A stretch of DNA of 64,000 bases from Methylophilus sp. 42 (GTDB taxonomy: Bacteria > Pseudomonadota > Gammaproteobacteria > Burkholderiales > Methylophilaceae). Positions 2,685 through 8,154 of this stretch are shown piece by piece (position 1 is the stretch's first letter; the number at the start of each line of letters is the position of its first letter). The notes beneath the pieces were generated by a model. That model did not search any database and was not told where the DNA came from. It saw only the letters and a program-made list of their open reading frames with translations. Both the position numbers and the translations under genes were made by a program. The stretch is taken from assembly GCF_000384155.1 (NCBI RefSeq), contig NZ_KB913031.1:248001-312000 (forward strand). The letters are read 5' to 3'.

Positions 2685-3608
2685 TTGATCGTCAGACCCA
2701 GACCACATTTGTTAGAGCTGTTTTTTATCATCAAAGGCTCGATCGTGCTCAGAATCATGCCCTTGCTGGTGTTCGTGGCAACGCTGTCCGCCGCGGTGGT
2801 GTCTGTGTACACCTTGAAGCCCGACTGGTTACCCAAGTTTGATGGTGGACCGTTTGCCCTGCTGGGCATTACCTTGTCCATTTTCCTCGCTTTTAGAAAC
2901 AATGCCTGTTATGAGCGCTGGTGGGAGGCGAGAAAAATTTGGGGCGAATTTATGCTGACAGCCAGAAACCTGGCGCGTTTAAGCCAGATTCTAGATCACC
3001 TGGATGGCAGCCTAAGCCCGTCACGTAGACAGCTTCTGGAGCACAACATCGCTTACGCGCATGCGCTGCTCATGCAGCTCAGGCCAGGTGATCAATTGCC
3101 AAAAATAACACGGTTGTTGCCTGCGGCAACTGCTAGCGCATTTACCCAGAGTAAAAATCCACCGGAGGTCATTTTGCGCGCGATGGAGCGTATCTTGATC
3201 GAAGCGTTAAGGGATGGTCGAATTCAGCCTATCCAATTTAACCTGCTTGAGGAATTAATTCAGAAATTGGCACTGACTCAGGCCGCTTGTGAGCGTATTC
3301 AGAACACGCCGATTCCCTTTGGCTATACCTTGCTTTTGCATCGCACGGCTTATACATTTTGCTTTTTAATGCCATTTGGTTTTGCCAACACCTTGGGCTG
3401 GGCAACACCCTTTGTGACCGCACTAGCCGCCTACACCTTGTTTGGGCTGGATGCCTTGGGTAACGAACTGGAGGAGCCTTTCGCGCCAATTGCCAACGCA
3501 TTACCGATTAACGCACTGACCGATTTGATTGAGATAGAACTCAGGGAAGCGTTGGGCGATGAGACGCTACCCGCATCGCCAGTGCCGAAAGAATTTGTAC
3601 TCATGTAG
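2685..3608 (+). CDS. Bestrophin-like (UPF0187/YneE family) membrane channel
   Basis: A 307-residue integral membrane protein. The pattern LGITLSIFLAFRNNACYERWWEARKIWGE near residues 60-90 is the diagnostic start of the bestrophin fold (FRxNxAYxRWWEGRxxWG), and the C-terminal half has FGYTLLLHR and a DALGNELEEPF segment that also match the family. Bacterial bestrophins form pentameric ion channels in the inner membrane; ion selectivity cannot be read from sequence. The chosen TTG start at 2685 has AGGAGA 6 bases upstream, and no in-frame ATG comes before the first helix. It is a single gene, with a decayed gene on the other strand behind it. Confidence 0.85.
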   Translation: MIVRPRPHLLELFFIIKGSIVLRIMPLLVFVATLSAAVVSVYTLKPDWLPKFDGGPFALLGITLSIFLAFRNNACYERWWEARKIWGEFMLTARNLARLSQILDHLDGSLSPSRRQLLEHNIAYAHALLMQLRPGDQLPKITRLLPAATASAFTQSKNPPEVILRAMERILIEALRDGRIQPIQFNLLEELIQKLALTQAACERIQNTPIPFGYTLLLHRTAYTFCFLMPFGFANTLGWATPFVTALAAYTLFGLDALGNELEEPFAPIANALPINALTDLIEIELREALGDETLPASPVPKEFVLM

Positions 3609-3788: not shown

Positions 3789-3819
3789 TTAGCTATTCCT
3801 CAATAGGATTAATGCGATG

Positions 3820-3847
3820 TTCGCTATATACTAATGGATATAACGAT
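3820..3847 (+). promoter_or_regulatory. Mo-box-like operator upstream of the binding protein/TonB receptor pair
   Basis: Half-sites TTCGCTATATA and GATATAACGAT are separated by exactly 6 bases. The published ModE/MopA/MopB Mo-box is ATCGCTATATA, N6, TATATAACGAT, so each half matches at 10 and 10 of 11 positions. A possible -10 box TATACT (3827-3832) lies inside the left arm and the ATG of the next gene follows 42 bases later, a placement that fits repression by molybdate-loaded ModE. Regulation by molybdenum or tungsten is inferred from the motif. Confidence 0.72.
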
Positions 3848-3888
3848 CAGCCATTCGGGCGGACACCACTTTTTAAAAAGGATAGACC

Positions 3889-4731
3889 ATGAAAGCTTGC
3901 CGCGGGTATCTTGCCATCCTGCTGGCGATTTGCTTGGCGACGAGTGAAGCAGCACAGGATACGACTGCCGAGGCGCGGGTCAAGGTGGCCGTGGTAGGCG
4001 GGCTGGTGCTTTCGGGCGTCTGGCCCGCTCTTGCCAAGCGCGCCGGCAAGGCAACCGGCCTTGTGATTGAGACTGTAGCTGCGGCTCCCAAAGAAGGCGT
4101 GGTACCCATCTTTCGCGATGGTGAGGCCGATTTATTGCTGATTCATGGCAGCGATGAGACCTACGGCCTGTTAGCTGCCGGAGTGGCTGCGCCGTTACGT
4201 GCCTGGGCCATGAATGAGCATGTGATCGTCGGGCCCAATGATGATCCAGCCAAGGTGGCCGAGGCACCGGATGCTGCCGAGGCCATGCGCCGTATCGTAG
4301 CCGCCGACGCGCCCCTGATCGGCTTCCGTGATCCCGGTAGCTTTGGCATCGTGCACGGCCTGTTCCGTTCCCTTGGCCTTCGACCGGGGCCACGCCAGCA
4401 GTTATACGACGATGCCGAGTCGCCCCAGCAGGTGCTGCGCTCCGCCGTCGACAAGCATGGTTACGCGGTGGTTGGCCACATTCCTGTGGCATTCGGCAAG
4501 ATGCCAAGCAAAGGCATGGCGGTGTTGCTCAAGGGTGATCCGGCCATGCGCCGGGTATATGTGGTGGTTGAGCCGGGGCCTCGTCACCCAGCAAATACAC
4601 GCCAACGTGAACTTGCCCGGCAACTTGCAGATTACCTCGTCAGCCACGCTGGCCAAGCCGATCTGGTGGCTGCCGACAAAGAAGCTGGAGGCCCTTGGGT
4701 GTTCCCGCTACCGGCGGCTGACACGCATTGA
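3889..4731 (+). CDS. Periplasmic substrate-binding protein, tungstate/molybdate (TupA-like) superfamily, ligand uncertain
   Basis: 280 residues with a signal peptide ending near residue 21 (ATSEA-AQ). The segment FRDGEADLLLIHG followed by MNEHVIVGPNDDPAK matches the TupA family pattern (GDADVLLVHA ... NDFVIVGPxxDPA), and GFRDPGSFGIVHGLF is the second-lobe ligand loop. The TTTS motif that contacts the oxyanion near the N-terminus of TupA is absent; the equivalent stretch reads VAVVGGLVLSG. The ligand may therefore not be free tungstate. No ABC permease or ATPase gene is nearby. A TonB receptor gene begins 51 bases downstream without a terminator, so the two are probably cotranscribed from the Mo-box promoter. 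The gene is richer in GC than the receptor gene that follows. Confidence 0.75.
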   Translation: MKACRGYLAILLAICLATSEAAQDTTAEARVKVAVVGGLVLSGVWPALAKRAGKATGLVIETVAAAPKEGVVPIFRDGEADLLLIHGSDETYGLLAAGVAAPLRAWAMNEHVIVGPNDDPAKVAEAPDAAEAMRRIVAADAPLIGFRDPGSFGIVHGLFRSLGLRPGPRQQLYDDAESPQQVLRSAVDKHGYAVVGHIPVAFGKMPSKGMAVLLKGDPAMRRVYVVVEPGPRHPANTRQRELARQLADYLVSHAGQADLVAADKEAGGPWVFPLPAADTH

Positions 4732-4782
4732 TTTCGTTAACCATACTCGTATAAGTATTCACTACGCGTAGGGAGCGATTTC

Positions 4783-6903
4783 GTGAAAGGTATCAAACTT
4801 TTTTTTCTTACAGCCCTGCTGGCTTTCGCCTTTGCCGTGCCCGCCGCAGAGGAAGGTAATACAGGTGCTGGCCATATAGAGCTGAGTGATGTCGTAGTCA
4901 CAGGTAAAAAGCTTAATCCACTCGCAATCCCCGTGAAATCAACGGTTGTGACGGCGGAAGAGATCAAGGCCAAAGGGGCGCAAACGGTAGATGAGGCCGT
5001 GAAGGATGTCGCAGGTCTGTACGTGACCGGCAGCAATGTGAAGGGGCGAAAGGTATCGCAGATACGCGGTAGCGATGCCAATAGCACCAAGGTCATTATC
5101 GATGGAGTGATGATCAACGGCGGCGGGGACGCAAGAATCGATTTGTCTATCATCCCCACTGACAACATTGAGAAAATCGAAATATTCAAGGGGCCTGTTC
5201 CCGTCATTTACGGCAGCAATGCGCCCGGTGGCGTGATATTCATCACAACGAAAAATGCCAGCGGAAAACTTTCCGGCTCGCTGGGGCTAGCTAAGGGAAG
5301 CTGGGGTTCAGAAATATATTCGGCCTCGCTGGCTGGAGGCACCGAAAATGTCAGCTATTACCTTGGCGCGAAGCTGAGCAGCACAGATGGCTATGACGAC
5401 AATCCGAATAACATCGGGGGCTTTAAAAGCCATACGGCCGAAGACTCGCAATACCTCAACGGAAAACTGAAGTGGGATATCAATCCAAAGGCTTCTCTTA
5501 CTGTGTTCGGATCACATTCGGAAACGACGAGGCAATTGCCGAACCGATATAACGCAACAGCTCGTGTGGGGTATCCCGGTGGGGGCAGTACACTGACGAT
5601 GCAAAACAATTATTTCGGTGGGGGCGCCACCGGTGGTGGTCCCACTTATGACTGGGGATATGACCCTATCAAGGAGTCATATTTGGGCACCGTATATAAC
5701 CAGAAGCTGAACGAAAATAACGATATCAGTTTGAAAGTTTTTCGGTCCGAATTAAGTAGTTTGCTCACAACATCCGGTTTCCAGCAAATAGACTGGAGTG
5801 GCAATACGAGTGGCTATGAATTGCAACACACGATCAGAATCGGCAAAGCCAATACAGCCACTTGGGGGTATACGGAAGAAAGACGGCGCTTTGAGGAGCA
5901 AACCCCTCTGCCACCAGGCACTCCACCGGTGACTTATGCCAGTGGCGACTACAATTACACAGCCAAGAGTTATTATCTGCAAGACGTGTGGAATATCACC
6001 CGCCAACTCAGTATGAGCTTAGGCTTTCGGCACAACGAAGTCGAAGATCATGTCGCCGTCAAGAACGTCACATGGACGAGACCAGCCAATAAAGAGCAGA
6101 AAGGTGTGTACTCATCCGACGATCCAGTGTTGGCTTTGAATTTCAGGCCAATCGAAAGTATTGCGCTACGTGCTTCCATCGGGAAGAGTTTCAGAGCCCC
6201 CACCGCGATGGAAAGATCTGCACCCGCACTGGTTCCGCTGAATAGTGGAGGAACGATTATTCCTTACTTCGGTGCGACTGTTTTGCCAGAAGTAGGTCTC
6301 AATCGTGAGGTTGGGGTAGAGACTTTAACAGACTTTGGACTCAGGTTCGGCCTGACGGGGTTCAACCGGCGCATTACGAACATGATCAAAGGTGCCGGTG
6401 GCGGTGGCGGACACACCCAGTACTTCAACATACCCGAAGTTGAAATGCTGGGCTACGAGACGGAAGTTAGCCAAATGGTTGGCGAAAGCATTAAGGTATT
6501 TGCAAATTACTCTTATACGAATGCTTATGACACGGCGATGAAATTGCAAGTGGCCGATATTCCATTGCGTAAATACTCGTATGGCGTCAATTACACCGGG
6601 AGCAGCTTCACCGCACATGTGAACGTAAATTATGTTGGGCCGGTGAGAAGCATGTATAGCCAGGGTAGCGGTAACGCCAGTAGTGATGGAAATTACACTA
6701 ATGTGGTGAATGGTGTCGCTACTTATTTCGGAACCCAGAATTTACCGGACTACCATGTGGTTGATTTGAAGGTGAATAAGACCGTGGGAAACAACGACTA
6801 CTACGTCAAGGTTCTAAACCTGTTCAATAAAGAATATTACACCGCGGCATATCTTGTTGCACCGGGTCGGTATGCAGAGGTTGGCGTCACGTTCAAATTT
6901 TAG
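4783..6903 (+). CDS. TonB-dependent outer-membrane receptor
   Basis: 706 residues: a signal peptide to about residue 22, a TonB box (ELSDVVVTGKK, residues about 33-43), a plug domain to about residue 155 (AGLYVTGSN..., IRG, IIDGVMING, EKIEIFKGPVPVIYGSNAPGGVI), then a 22-strand barrel ending in GVTFKF with the C-terminal Phe used by the Bam machine. Such receptors import scarce metal complexes or cofactors across the outer membrane using TonB-ExbBD energy. Start is GTG at 4783 with GGGAG about 8 bases upstream. Being coupled to a TupA-like binding protein and a Mo-box, it may take up a molybdenum or tungsten species, perhaps a chelate; that is inference. There is no iron-type (Fur) site visible. 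Confidence 0.9.
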   Translation: MKGIKLFFLTALLAFAFAVPAAEEGNTGAGHIELSDVVVTGKKLNPLAIPVKSTVVTAEEIKAKGAQTVDEAVKDVAGLYVTGSNVKGRKVSQIRGSDANSTKVIIDGVMINGGGDARIDLSIIPTDNIEKIEIFKGPVPVIYGSNAPGGVIFITTKNASGKLSGSLGLAKGSWGSEIYSASLAGGTENVSYYLGAKLSSTDGYDDNPNNIGGFKSHTAEDSQYLNGKLKWDINPKASLTVFGSHSETTRQLPNRYNATARVGYPGGGSTLTMQNNYFGGGATGGGPTYDWGYDPIKESYLGTVYNQKLNENNDISLKVFRSELSSLLTTSGFQQIDWSGNTSGYELQHTIRIGKANTATWGYTEERRRFEEQTPLPPGTPPVTYASGDYNYTAKSYYLQDVWNITRQLSMSLGFRHNEVEDHVAVKNVTWTRPANKEQKGVYSSDDPVLALNFRPIESIALRASIGKSFRAPTAMERSAPALVPLNSGGTIIPYFGATVLPEVGLNREVGVETLTDFGLRFGLTGFNRRITNMIKGAGGGGGHTQYFNIPEVEMLGYETEVSQMVGESIKVFANYSYTNAYDTAMKLQVADIPLRKYSYGVNYTGSSFTAHVNVNYVGPVRSMYSQGSGNASSDGNYTNVVNGVATYFGTQNLPDYHVVDLKVNKTVGNNDYYVKVLNLFNKEYYTAAYLVAPGRYAEVGVTFKF

Positions 6904-7077
6904 ATGAGCCTCTATTCATGACGATCAATATCGGAATGCATCTCGGCATCTTGAATTCCAGCGATCTGCGGGCCTGGTCGGTATACACCTAGATTCTGGG
7001 CGGTTTAGTCAACATCCGCTTCGTTACATTGCCACAATCATAGGGAACTAACCAATCCAAGCAAAAAACTCAGGTGG

Positions 7078-7115
7078 TATCGCTATATACGATCGTATAT
7101 AGCGATATGTATAAT
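7078..7115 (+). promoter_or_regulatory. Perfect Mo-box palindrome with adjoining -10 box, upstream of the PEP-CTERM gene
   Basis: Bases 7078-7107 form a perfect 30-base palindrome. Inside it ATCGCTATATA (7079-7089), six bases, and TATATAGCGAT (7096-7106) fit the Mo-box consensus, with fully symmetric arms. A consensus TATAAT lies at 7110-7115, 2 bases after the palindrome, so a bound dimer would cover the -35 region. This placement predicts repression when the regulator holds molybdate or tungstate. Confidence 0.8.
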
Positions 7116-7175
7116 GCATCTAGGGGAGCAATATAAGTCCCATTCATTTTCTCAACAACGAGTAGGAGTCTTAAA

Positions 7176-8033
7176 GTGAACAAACATCTACCAACCATCC
7201 TTCTAGGGTTGCTTGCCGCAACCTTTATCGGAAATGTCAGTGCAGCGACGCTGACACATGAAAGCATTTCGATTGTGGGTAGCGGGGGGGCTGGCGGCAC
7301 GGGCTCAACGGCCAGCGACATGATATTTTCAAGTTACAGTGCTGTCGATGGCTGGGGATGGGCAGGTGGTGCCGGTGGCGTCCAGGGCAGCCTCTCTAAG
7401 ACCAATACCGGAGGCAATGCATTGGCAGCCAACGAAGCCTTCAGTTTTAATATCGGCTCGATTGTCGACTCTCTAAACACCACCTATGGGGCTGGCAACT
7501 GGAATGTCGCCAACGCCAGTCTCTCCTTTACATCCTCATACTCTGTTCAGAACAATTCACGCTTTGGCATTGGCTCTGGAACTTTCGATATTTACTGGGT
7601 GGGCAATGACGACTGGGCACAGTCCAAAGGCACGCCGACAGATCGCCAACTCAACCCAGTCTACGCCAGCAACGCTGCAGCGCTACAAAGTTGGGCAGGC
7701 AGTACCTCACTGCTGGGGTCGGAAACTTTTACCGTACCAGCCGGTGGCACCGGATACGTCAGCTTGAGCTATAACCTTGCATCAGACGCGTCGTTCTTCT
7801 CGGACATCCTCTCTGCATCAGCAAGCGGCAGCAACAAAGAGACTTCATTTTATCTGATGAGTACCGCCGACACTTTGGGGATGATTATTTTCACGGGTGG
7901 ACAAGGGCAAGCATTACCAACTTTAAGTTTTGACGTGGTTTCGGTGATTCCCGTGCCAGAACCAGAGAGCATAGCCATGCTCTTGGCAGGCCTAGGTCTC
8001 ATCGGCGCAACAGTTCGTCGCCGTAGAGTCTGA
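7176..8033 (+). CDS. PEP-CTERM sorted exported protein under Mo-box control
   Basis: 285 residues, no cysteine, with a signal peptide ending near VSA-AT (residue 23), a Gly/Ser-rich beta-type body, and a C-terminal sorting signal: VPEPES near residue 260, a hydrophobic helix, then RRRR before the end. Exosortase EpsH-type enzymes recognise this signal, remove it and release the protein to the surface or extracellular matrix; no exosortase gene is in the window. Start is GTG at 7176 with AGGAG at 7164-7168. The body resembles no enzyme I recognise; a surface-binding or matrix role is possible. The preceding perfect Mo-box suggests that it is made when molybdenum is short. Confidence 0.85.
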   Translation: MNKHLPTILLGLLAATFIGNVSAATLTHESISIVGSGGAGGTGSTASDMIFSSYSAVDGWGWAGGAGGVQGSLSKTNTGGNALAANEAFSFNIGSIVDSLNTTYGAGNWNVANASLSFTSSYSVQNNSRFGIGSGTFDIYWVGNDDWAQSKGTPTDRQLNPVYASNAAALQSWAGSTSLLGSETFTVPAGGTGYVSLSYNLASDASFFSDILSASASGSNKETSFYLMSTADTLGMIIFTGGQGQALPTLSFDVVSVIPVPEPESIAMLLAGLGLIGATVRRRRV

Positions 8034-8125
8034 CTTAATTTTCCGCACCTGCATGAGTGTTGTAGGTGCGGATTACCCGATTCTCTGTGGGACATCGCGC
8101 GCCCGGGGTCGACGTTGCTTCACAG

Positions 8126-8154
8126 CAGGCATGCAATCATGCCTGTTATTTTTT
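8126..8154 (+). terminator. Rho-independent terminator after the PEP-CTERM gene
   Basis: CAGGCATG and CATGCCTG pair around a CAAT loop, followed by TTATTTTTT. An additional hairpin without a T run (CCGCACCT/AGGTGCGG, about 8046-8074) lies between the stop codon and this site. Confidence 0.8.

Follow-up and report, generated by a model that had tools for sequence, protein, structure and literature searches.

What does a TonB-dependent receptor carry when its operon starts behind a binding site for the molybdenum regulator ModE? This question is raised by a block of three genes in a 64,000-nucleotide stretch of the Methylophilus sp. 42 genome (family Methylophilaceae; contig NZ_KB913031.1, positions 248,001 to 312,000), here called the window, in whose numbering positions are given. 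The block encodes a periplasmic solute-binding protein, a TonB-dependent outer-membrane receptor and a PEP-CTERM protein, and two ModE-type Mo-boxes stand before these genes. We think it likely that the block forms a module under ModE control for the TonB-dependent uptake of molybdenum or tungsten, two cargoes that are indistinguishable by this analysis. That ModE controls a TonB route with a link to these metals is well supported by comparison, because most relatives have ModE-type boxes and are neighbors of modE or of MolABC-like genes. A preliminary description of the window had named the opposite outcome, relatives in iron or cobalamin operons and without the sites, as speaking against its proposal. 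The boxes, the genes, their conservation, the operator common with modA in relatives and the linkage to modE and MolABC-like genes are read directly from sequence.

Mo-boxes and genes of the block

Mo-box 1 lies at positions 3821-3847, with its core CGCTATATACTAATGGATATAACG at 3822-3845, and ends 43 bases 5' of the binding-protein gene (3889-4731, forward strand). Its core differs at two positions from the consensus CGCTATATA-N6-TATATAGCG. Mo-box 2 at 7078-7107 is a perfect 30-base palindrome ending 71 bases 5' of the PEP-CTERM gene, and its core CGCTATATACGATCGTATATAGCG at 7081-7104 matches the consensus without a mismatch. Neither box is assigned a strand. These are the two matches in the window at up to three mismatches, and 100 shuffles gave none; the two ModE/Mop-type sites reported in the preliminary description are real and beyond chance. 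The same pattern with a 7-base spacer was absent from the window, and no promoter-like site at either box was among those listed by a promoter scan. In the whole genome, searched as a single contig of 2,968,340 bases, the looser consensus CGNTATATA-N6-TATATANCG at no more than one mismatch occurs at three places and its reversed control at none. The third place precedes a xanthine-dehydrogenase-type operon with 2Fe-2S and molybdopterin-binding subunits (identified by Pfam) and an XdhC-like protein (by eye).

A gap of 51 bases separates the binding-protein gene from the receptor gene (4783-6903, forward strand). The 706-residue receptor matches the Plug (88.1 bits) and beta-barrel (110.1 bits) domains of Pfam, both over cut-off, and thus contains the domains of a TonB-dependent receptor. 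The third gene (7176-8033, forward strand) encodes a protein of 285 residues with a PEP-CTERM motif (32.0 bits), and the genome encodes an exosortase (218.7 bits), so that both the C-terminal motif and the enzyme by which PEP-CTERM/exosortase sorting is recognized are present. Receptor and sorted protein had both been named in the preliminary description. A fold prediction for the PEP-CTERM protein was not confident (pLDDT, the predicted local distance difference test, of 47) and was left unused.

Among 150 family genomes, close copies of the binding protein (97%) and the receptor (95%) were found only in the window's genome and a congener, G081; the receptor searches scored the best eight candidates per genome, elsewhere the best three, at strict E-values, which makes absences weak. 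Distant matches of the binding protein (21-33%) occur in eight further family genomes. The congener's copy aligns over window positions 3794-8098 at 92-94% nucleotide identity and, within the compared stretches, not beyond. The block had been placed at 3820-8033, and the common unit extends somewhat further on both sides. Its neighbors differ in the congener, where it occupies another locus. Both boxes are retained there, with identical half-sites and an altered spacer in Mo-box 2. Because the binding-protein gene has a G+C content of 62.4%, compared with 52.2% for the window, its composition suggests that it arrived from a G+C-richer source. A tblastn search of PLSDB, within the limits set, gave no plasmid relatives, and a search for repeats at the block ends, as a trace of mobility, gave nothing convincing.

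Gene rows and operators in relatives

At no more than one mismatch, the box was found at 35 places in 23 of the 150 family genomes, and the reversed pattern at eight places. Molybdenum loci account for 27 of the 35, four of them being the block in its two genomes; the others are xanthine-dehydrogenase-type operons, modE, and outer-membrane protein genes adjoining modE, modA or tupA. The genes were named partly by eye and some by Pfam or NCBIfam; ModE with a TOBE domain was confirmed at seven loci (L136, L138, L141, L143, L146, L147 and L162) and molybdoenzyme domains at L013, L133 and L161. Since family boxes adjoin outer-membrane protein genes, a ModE-linked outer-membrane step seems to recur in the family, with a TonB receptor in the window's genome; this is a comparison and not proof of function. 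The four outer-membrane candidates tested gave two Porin_O_P matches, one Alginate_exp match and one protein without a match.

Beyond the family, the binding protein has matches at E<=1e-10 in 59 of 369 genomes of the class. Only the one in G373 is close (53%); the others listed are 22-32% identical, and some of the distant matches examined are the TupA of tup operons. Scanning named-species genomes with two peptide patterns gave 90 stretches and at least 14 relatives at 13 loci. The preliminary description had proposed a search for the trio next to Mo-boxes: the congener has it with both boxes, and it also occurs in Methyloversatilis universalis EHg5, with a divergent PEP-CTERM gene and weaker boxes. 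A PEP-CTERM gene (TIGR02595, 26.3 bits) also lies directly 5' of the binding-protein gene in a Rhodocyclales metagenome-assembled genome (MAG), near a contig end; its product is unrelated to the window's by tblastn. In a Dechloromonas MAG, MolB-like and MolC-like genes are 5' of the binding-protein gene.

All ten remaining loci, from Comamonas, Acidovorax, Delftia, Oryzisolibacter and one MAG titled Burkholderiaceae, share one gene row: TonB-dependent receptor, binding protein, DUF2478 protein, MolA-like protein, MolB-like permease and ATPase, with Pfam assignments for the Comamonas testosteroni copy. The operon proteins of CP044131, which is among these ten, and of G373 are identical. The remark in the preliminary description that no ABC permease is present holds for the block itself, but not for this row, where a MolB-like permease occurs at every one of the ten loci. 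For the C. testosteroni permease, the one of the ten operons compared with the Protein Data Bank, the best solved relative is HI1471 (MolB, 2nq2) at 215.8 bits, followed by one at 186.4 bits; by this comparison the Comamonas-type FecCD permease is nearest to MolB. The MolA-like protein of these operons belongs to Peripla_BP_2. In the available text of a study of C. testosteroni transcripts under microgravity (PMC10781756), metal-import genes change and none of them is attributable to the operon.

A further genome, G314, was found through DUF2478. It encodes a full-length ModE with TOBE domains divergently from an operon of a TonB-dependent receptor (54% identical to that of C. testosteroni), DUF2478 and MolA-, MolB- and MolC-like proteins; a CGTTATATCAACTTGGATATAACG palindrome between modE and the operon was reached by none of 500 shuffles. 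This operon is without a relative of the binding protein. DUF2478 occurs in five of 274 class genomes: in receptor operons in G373 and G314, before tup genes in G260 (whose TupA-like protein scores 212.7 bits, below the model cut-off of 400), and without a visible molybdenum setting in G351 and G414, the latter copy lying near a contig end with its neighbors only partly visible. At L157 (6212-9051), a DUF2478 gene was seen directly 5' of tupB-, tupC- and tupA-like genes.

The Comamonas-type operons are preceded by a CGNTAT-N11/12-ATANCG palindrome, without a mismatch at nine of the ten loci and with one at the tenth, each reached by at most three of 500 shuffles. Six of the ten have the TATTC form with N11. 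In the genomes of C. testosteroni, Acidovorax, Delftia and Oryzisolibacter, this form at no more than one mismatch occurs at seven places, all at molybdenum genes or receptor operons: four modA promoters, two receptor operons and one molybdoenzyme gene (Oxidored_molyb) behind a cytochrome-like gene. All four modA score over their model cut-off, and two of the promoters are shared with a divergent modE-like gene. On this sequence comparison, the operator is common to modA and the receptor operons in Comamonas-type genomes. Methyloversatilis, the fifth genome searched, had no TATTC place at no more than one mismatch. L096, which starts too close to a contig end, was left out of the box search.

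A second receptor type accompanied by a TiaS/methanogenesis-marker-11-like protein and a small membrane protein was noticed at L048 (6714-11090), where it adjoins a distant relative of the binding protein, and at L087 (1389-10491), where it adjoins tupABC-like genes and a protein with a VPLPP tail. This is perhaps another TonB route for molybdenum or tungsten.

Binding protein, receptor and regulator in Methylophilus sp. 42

The binding protein is homologous to TupA over its full length, with 20-26% identity to tup-linked TupA sequences and to L048, and matches SBP_bac_11 at 24.0 bits, slightly below the 25-bit cut-off. Its predicted structure has a mean pLDDT of 87.1, and the top solved matches are 3muq and the TupA structures 3lr1 and 5my5. 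The alignment behind the model (A3) held five TupA-type or distant sequences (four tup-linked TupA and one distant), which leans the model towards TupA. As modeled, the binding protein keeps the TupA-type fold. According to the available text of PMC5517513, the residues of the tungstate site are TTTS, R118, T124 and D170. The TTTS position reads VVGG or AVGG in all 15 aligned members of the clade, and the likely place of D170, by our own single-residue mapping, reads VGHIP or AGHIP. Because these tungstate-site residues are replaced, the ligand may be other than a bare oxyanion. The NCBIfam TupA model does not match the protein at E<=0.001, and TupA membership was rejected because the TTTS motif is absent. 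The label "TupA-like" in the preliminary description therefore applies to homology and fold, but not to the motif. At E<=1e-10, a search of the genome gave no second relative of this protein.

The plug of the receptor is nearest to siderophore and B12 receptors. Assignment to a heme, B12 or siderophore subfamily was rejected, since no curated NCBIfam cut-off was reached among the families listed (25 of 26); the best score was to TonB-hemin, 146.5 against a cut-off of 316.85. There is no permease in the block. The sole FecCD permease found in the genome was rejected as a partner because it sits with heme-importer-like genes; the ATPase beside it matches heme importers best, at 205.2 bits, below the model cut-off of 261. 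The modABC genes are located at about 2.41 Mb, and modA scores over its model cut-off. The earlier suggestion, a periplasmic step that may feed a transporter from another locus, is consistent with this genome.

Directly 5' of modA, modB and modC, a ModE-like protein of 117 residues is encoded that has the helix-turn-helix (HTH) part only. The palindrome 5' of modA is degenerate (six mismatches) and proves nothing in this genome, because it is one of eight such sites in 13.5 kb. Such an HTH-only ModE adjoins modABC at L123 (5468-8030), in a genome in which PF03459 was not found. An HTH-only ModE whose sensing is unexplained is described for Desulfovibrio in the available text of PMC545781.

The surroundings of the block add a few separate observations. 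On its 3' side, a terminator-like stem-loop lies at 8124-8147 on the forward strand, a type of match near shuffle level (five found, 4.0 expected). A bestrophin gene (Bestrophin_2, 2685-3608) lies immediately 5' of the block, and in another family genome (L131, 1103-2005) a Mo-box match is situated inside a bestrophin gene, a link that is probably coincidence. At 465-2522 there are a MarR-family gene and a catalase-family gene, and the opposite strand carries a gene judged by eye to be MsrB-like; the three are perhaps a small oxidative-stress group. In three small family genomes, good Mo-box matches at 1501-1524 (L126, L127 and L128) stand 5' of mraZ-like genes, without an obvious molybdenum link.

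A candidate route for molybdenum or tungsten

In the uptake module that we favor, ModE would leave both boxes when the metal is scarce. The receptor, energized by TonB, would carry a molybdenum or tungsten species, as the bare oxyanion or a chelate, through the outer membrane, and the TupA-related binding protein would take it in the periplasm. Passage of the inner membrane would probably fall to ModABC, encoded elsewhere in this genome, and in Comamonas-type relatives to the MolABC-like importer from the same gene row. With a box of its own, the PEP-CTERM gene would be regulated together with the other two, and its product may have a role at the cell surface. The direction of regulation, the transport, the ligand, the hand-over between proteins and the surface role are what we infer here. 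A more specific proposal, which we put forward tentatively, is a TonB system dedicated to chelated molybdenum or tungsten, in the form of a molybdophore or of a complex from the environment: the binding protein would have exchanged the oxyanion pocket of TupA for a chelate pocket, the metal would be released and then passed to ModABC or the MolABC-like importer, DUF2478 would help in the cytoplasm, and the PEP-CTERM protein would collect the chelate at the surface.

Several observations weigh against an uptake module of this kind. The binding protein has lost TTTS. At up to three mismatches the looser consensus gives 12 places in the genome and the reversed control 16, which is noise. The ModE-like protein scores 29.9 bits to HTH_1 and 87.9 bits to TIGR00637, below the NCBIfam cut-off of 98.5, and the TOBE domain PF03459, the only one searched, gave no match in the genome, although 12 of 14 control genomes were positive for it. 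Of the 35 boxes in the family, eight lie away from molybdenum genes (three are 5' of mraZ-like genes, one is within a bestrophin gene, and there are four others), a number equal to that of the reversed control. Mo-box 1 of the congener was reached by six of 500 shuffles, and the Methyloversatilis boxes by eight and 13 of 500. The CGNTAT-N11/N12 motif was written after the sequences had been seen, and at up to two mismatches the TATTC form is noise (16 places versus nine reversed in C. testosteroni, three versus eight in Acidovorax). The palindrome search showed no box at L095 or at the distant L048, and the latter also has no Mo-box at up to four mismatches. Identity between the Comamonas-type receptor and the window's is only 20-27%, and the MolA-like protein has two unnamed binding proteins as its best solved relatives, with MolA (3psa) third.

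Other explanations place the same genes under ModE without giving them molybdenum to carry. The receptor and binding protein could bring in an organic compound that a molybdoenzyme needs as its substrate or partner, with ModE activating them or timing them with the enzyme. ModE can act on enzyme operons in E. coli, and xanthine-dehydrogenase-type enzymes are encoded behind the genome's third box and behind many of the boxes in the family. This explanation is nevertheless unlikely, as the binding protein or receptor type of the relatives is linked to MolABC-like genes and modE and not to one enzyme, and the molybdoenzyme of C. testosteroni differs from that in the window's genome. Just as improbable, in our estimate, is that ModE derepresses the block under molybdenum shortage to import another metal or its chelate, such as iron or vanadium, for molybdenum-independent replacements. 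The nearness of the plug to siderophore and B12 receptors would agree with this, as would the TonB siderophore receptors with ABC genes of Azotobacter vinelandii, which depend on VnfA1 in the absence of molybdenum (PMC9542535, available text). The MolB-like permease of the relatives, the association of DUF2478 with tup genes and the TupA homology of the binding protein argue in the other direction.

A further alternative concerns the binding protein alone, which might be a sensor or periplasmic accessory that binds no ligand, leaving the receptor as the sole carrier of metal. The absence of TTTS throughout the aligned clade, the presence of a MolA-like binding protein in the Comamonas-type rows and the G314 operon would suit such a role. 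We consider it very improbable, given that the TupA-type fold appears to be kept and that the protein is conserved across three lineages, a conservation that arises partly by construction since the binding protein was the query of the scan.

Receptor operons sharing their operator with modA provide a defined, deletable candidate for active outer-membrane uptake of molybdenum or tungsten, and named strains of C. testosteroni, Delftia acidovorans and M. universalis bear it. They make it testable whether complexed molybdenum has a receptor, and they help to place DUF2478 in a molybdenum or tungsten setting in three of the five class genomes that hold it. Should the chelate proposal be true, the result would be a genetically defined outer-membrane molybdenum receptor that ModE controls directly.

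Passage of molybdenum through the outer membrane is usually ascribed to porins. In the literature searched, which covered few subscription papers and so leaves absence unproven, we found no ModE-controlled TonB receptor and no paper joining a Mo-box with TonB; the receptors of A. vinelandii and the ModA-IcmP route of Pseudomonas aeruginosa come nearest. An outer-membrane step in molybdate supply is also part of the ModA-IcmP system, cited in PMC11734730; there, ModA is secreted by a type VI system, and the available text describes no ModE-controlled receptor operon. The VnfA1-dependent receptors of A. vinelandii are a parallel in that they are TonB receptors which stand with ABC genes and are expressed without molybdenum; their control, in contrast, is by VnfA1 and, in the available text, is not shown as direct ModE control (PMC9542535). 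TupABC is related through TupA, the homologue of the binding protein, whereas the block has neither TTTS nor TupBC alongside. MolABC of Haemophilus influenzae (HI1470-HI1472) resembles the Comamonas-type operons in the MolB-like permease and the Peripla_BP_2 protein, an importer that the window's block does not contain. MolBC-A carries molybdate in H. influenzae, and TonB is not mentioned in the available text of that study (PMC4031551). A parallel in regulation is the ModE/MopA-MopB regulon of the Rhodobacter capsulatus and E. coli type, where an operator of the same form controls genes of molybdenum acquisition, and where, in R. capsulatus, molybdenum represses mopA-modABC and morAB (PMC6925177, available text). 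The targets of that regulon are the ABC importers modABC and morAB, whereas those of the block would be a TonB receptor with its binding protein and a PEP-CTERM gene, under a regulator without a TOBE domain.

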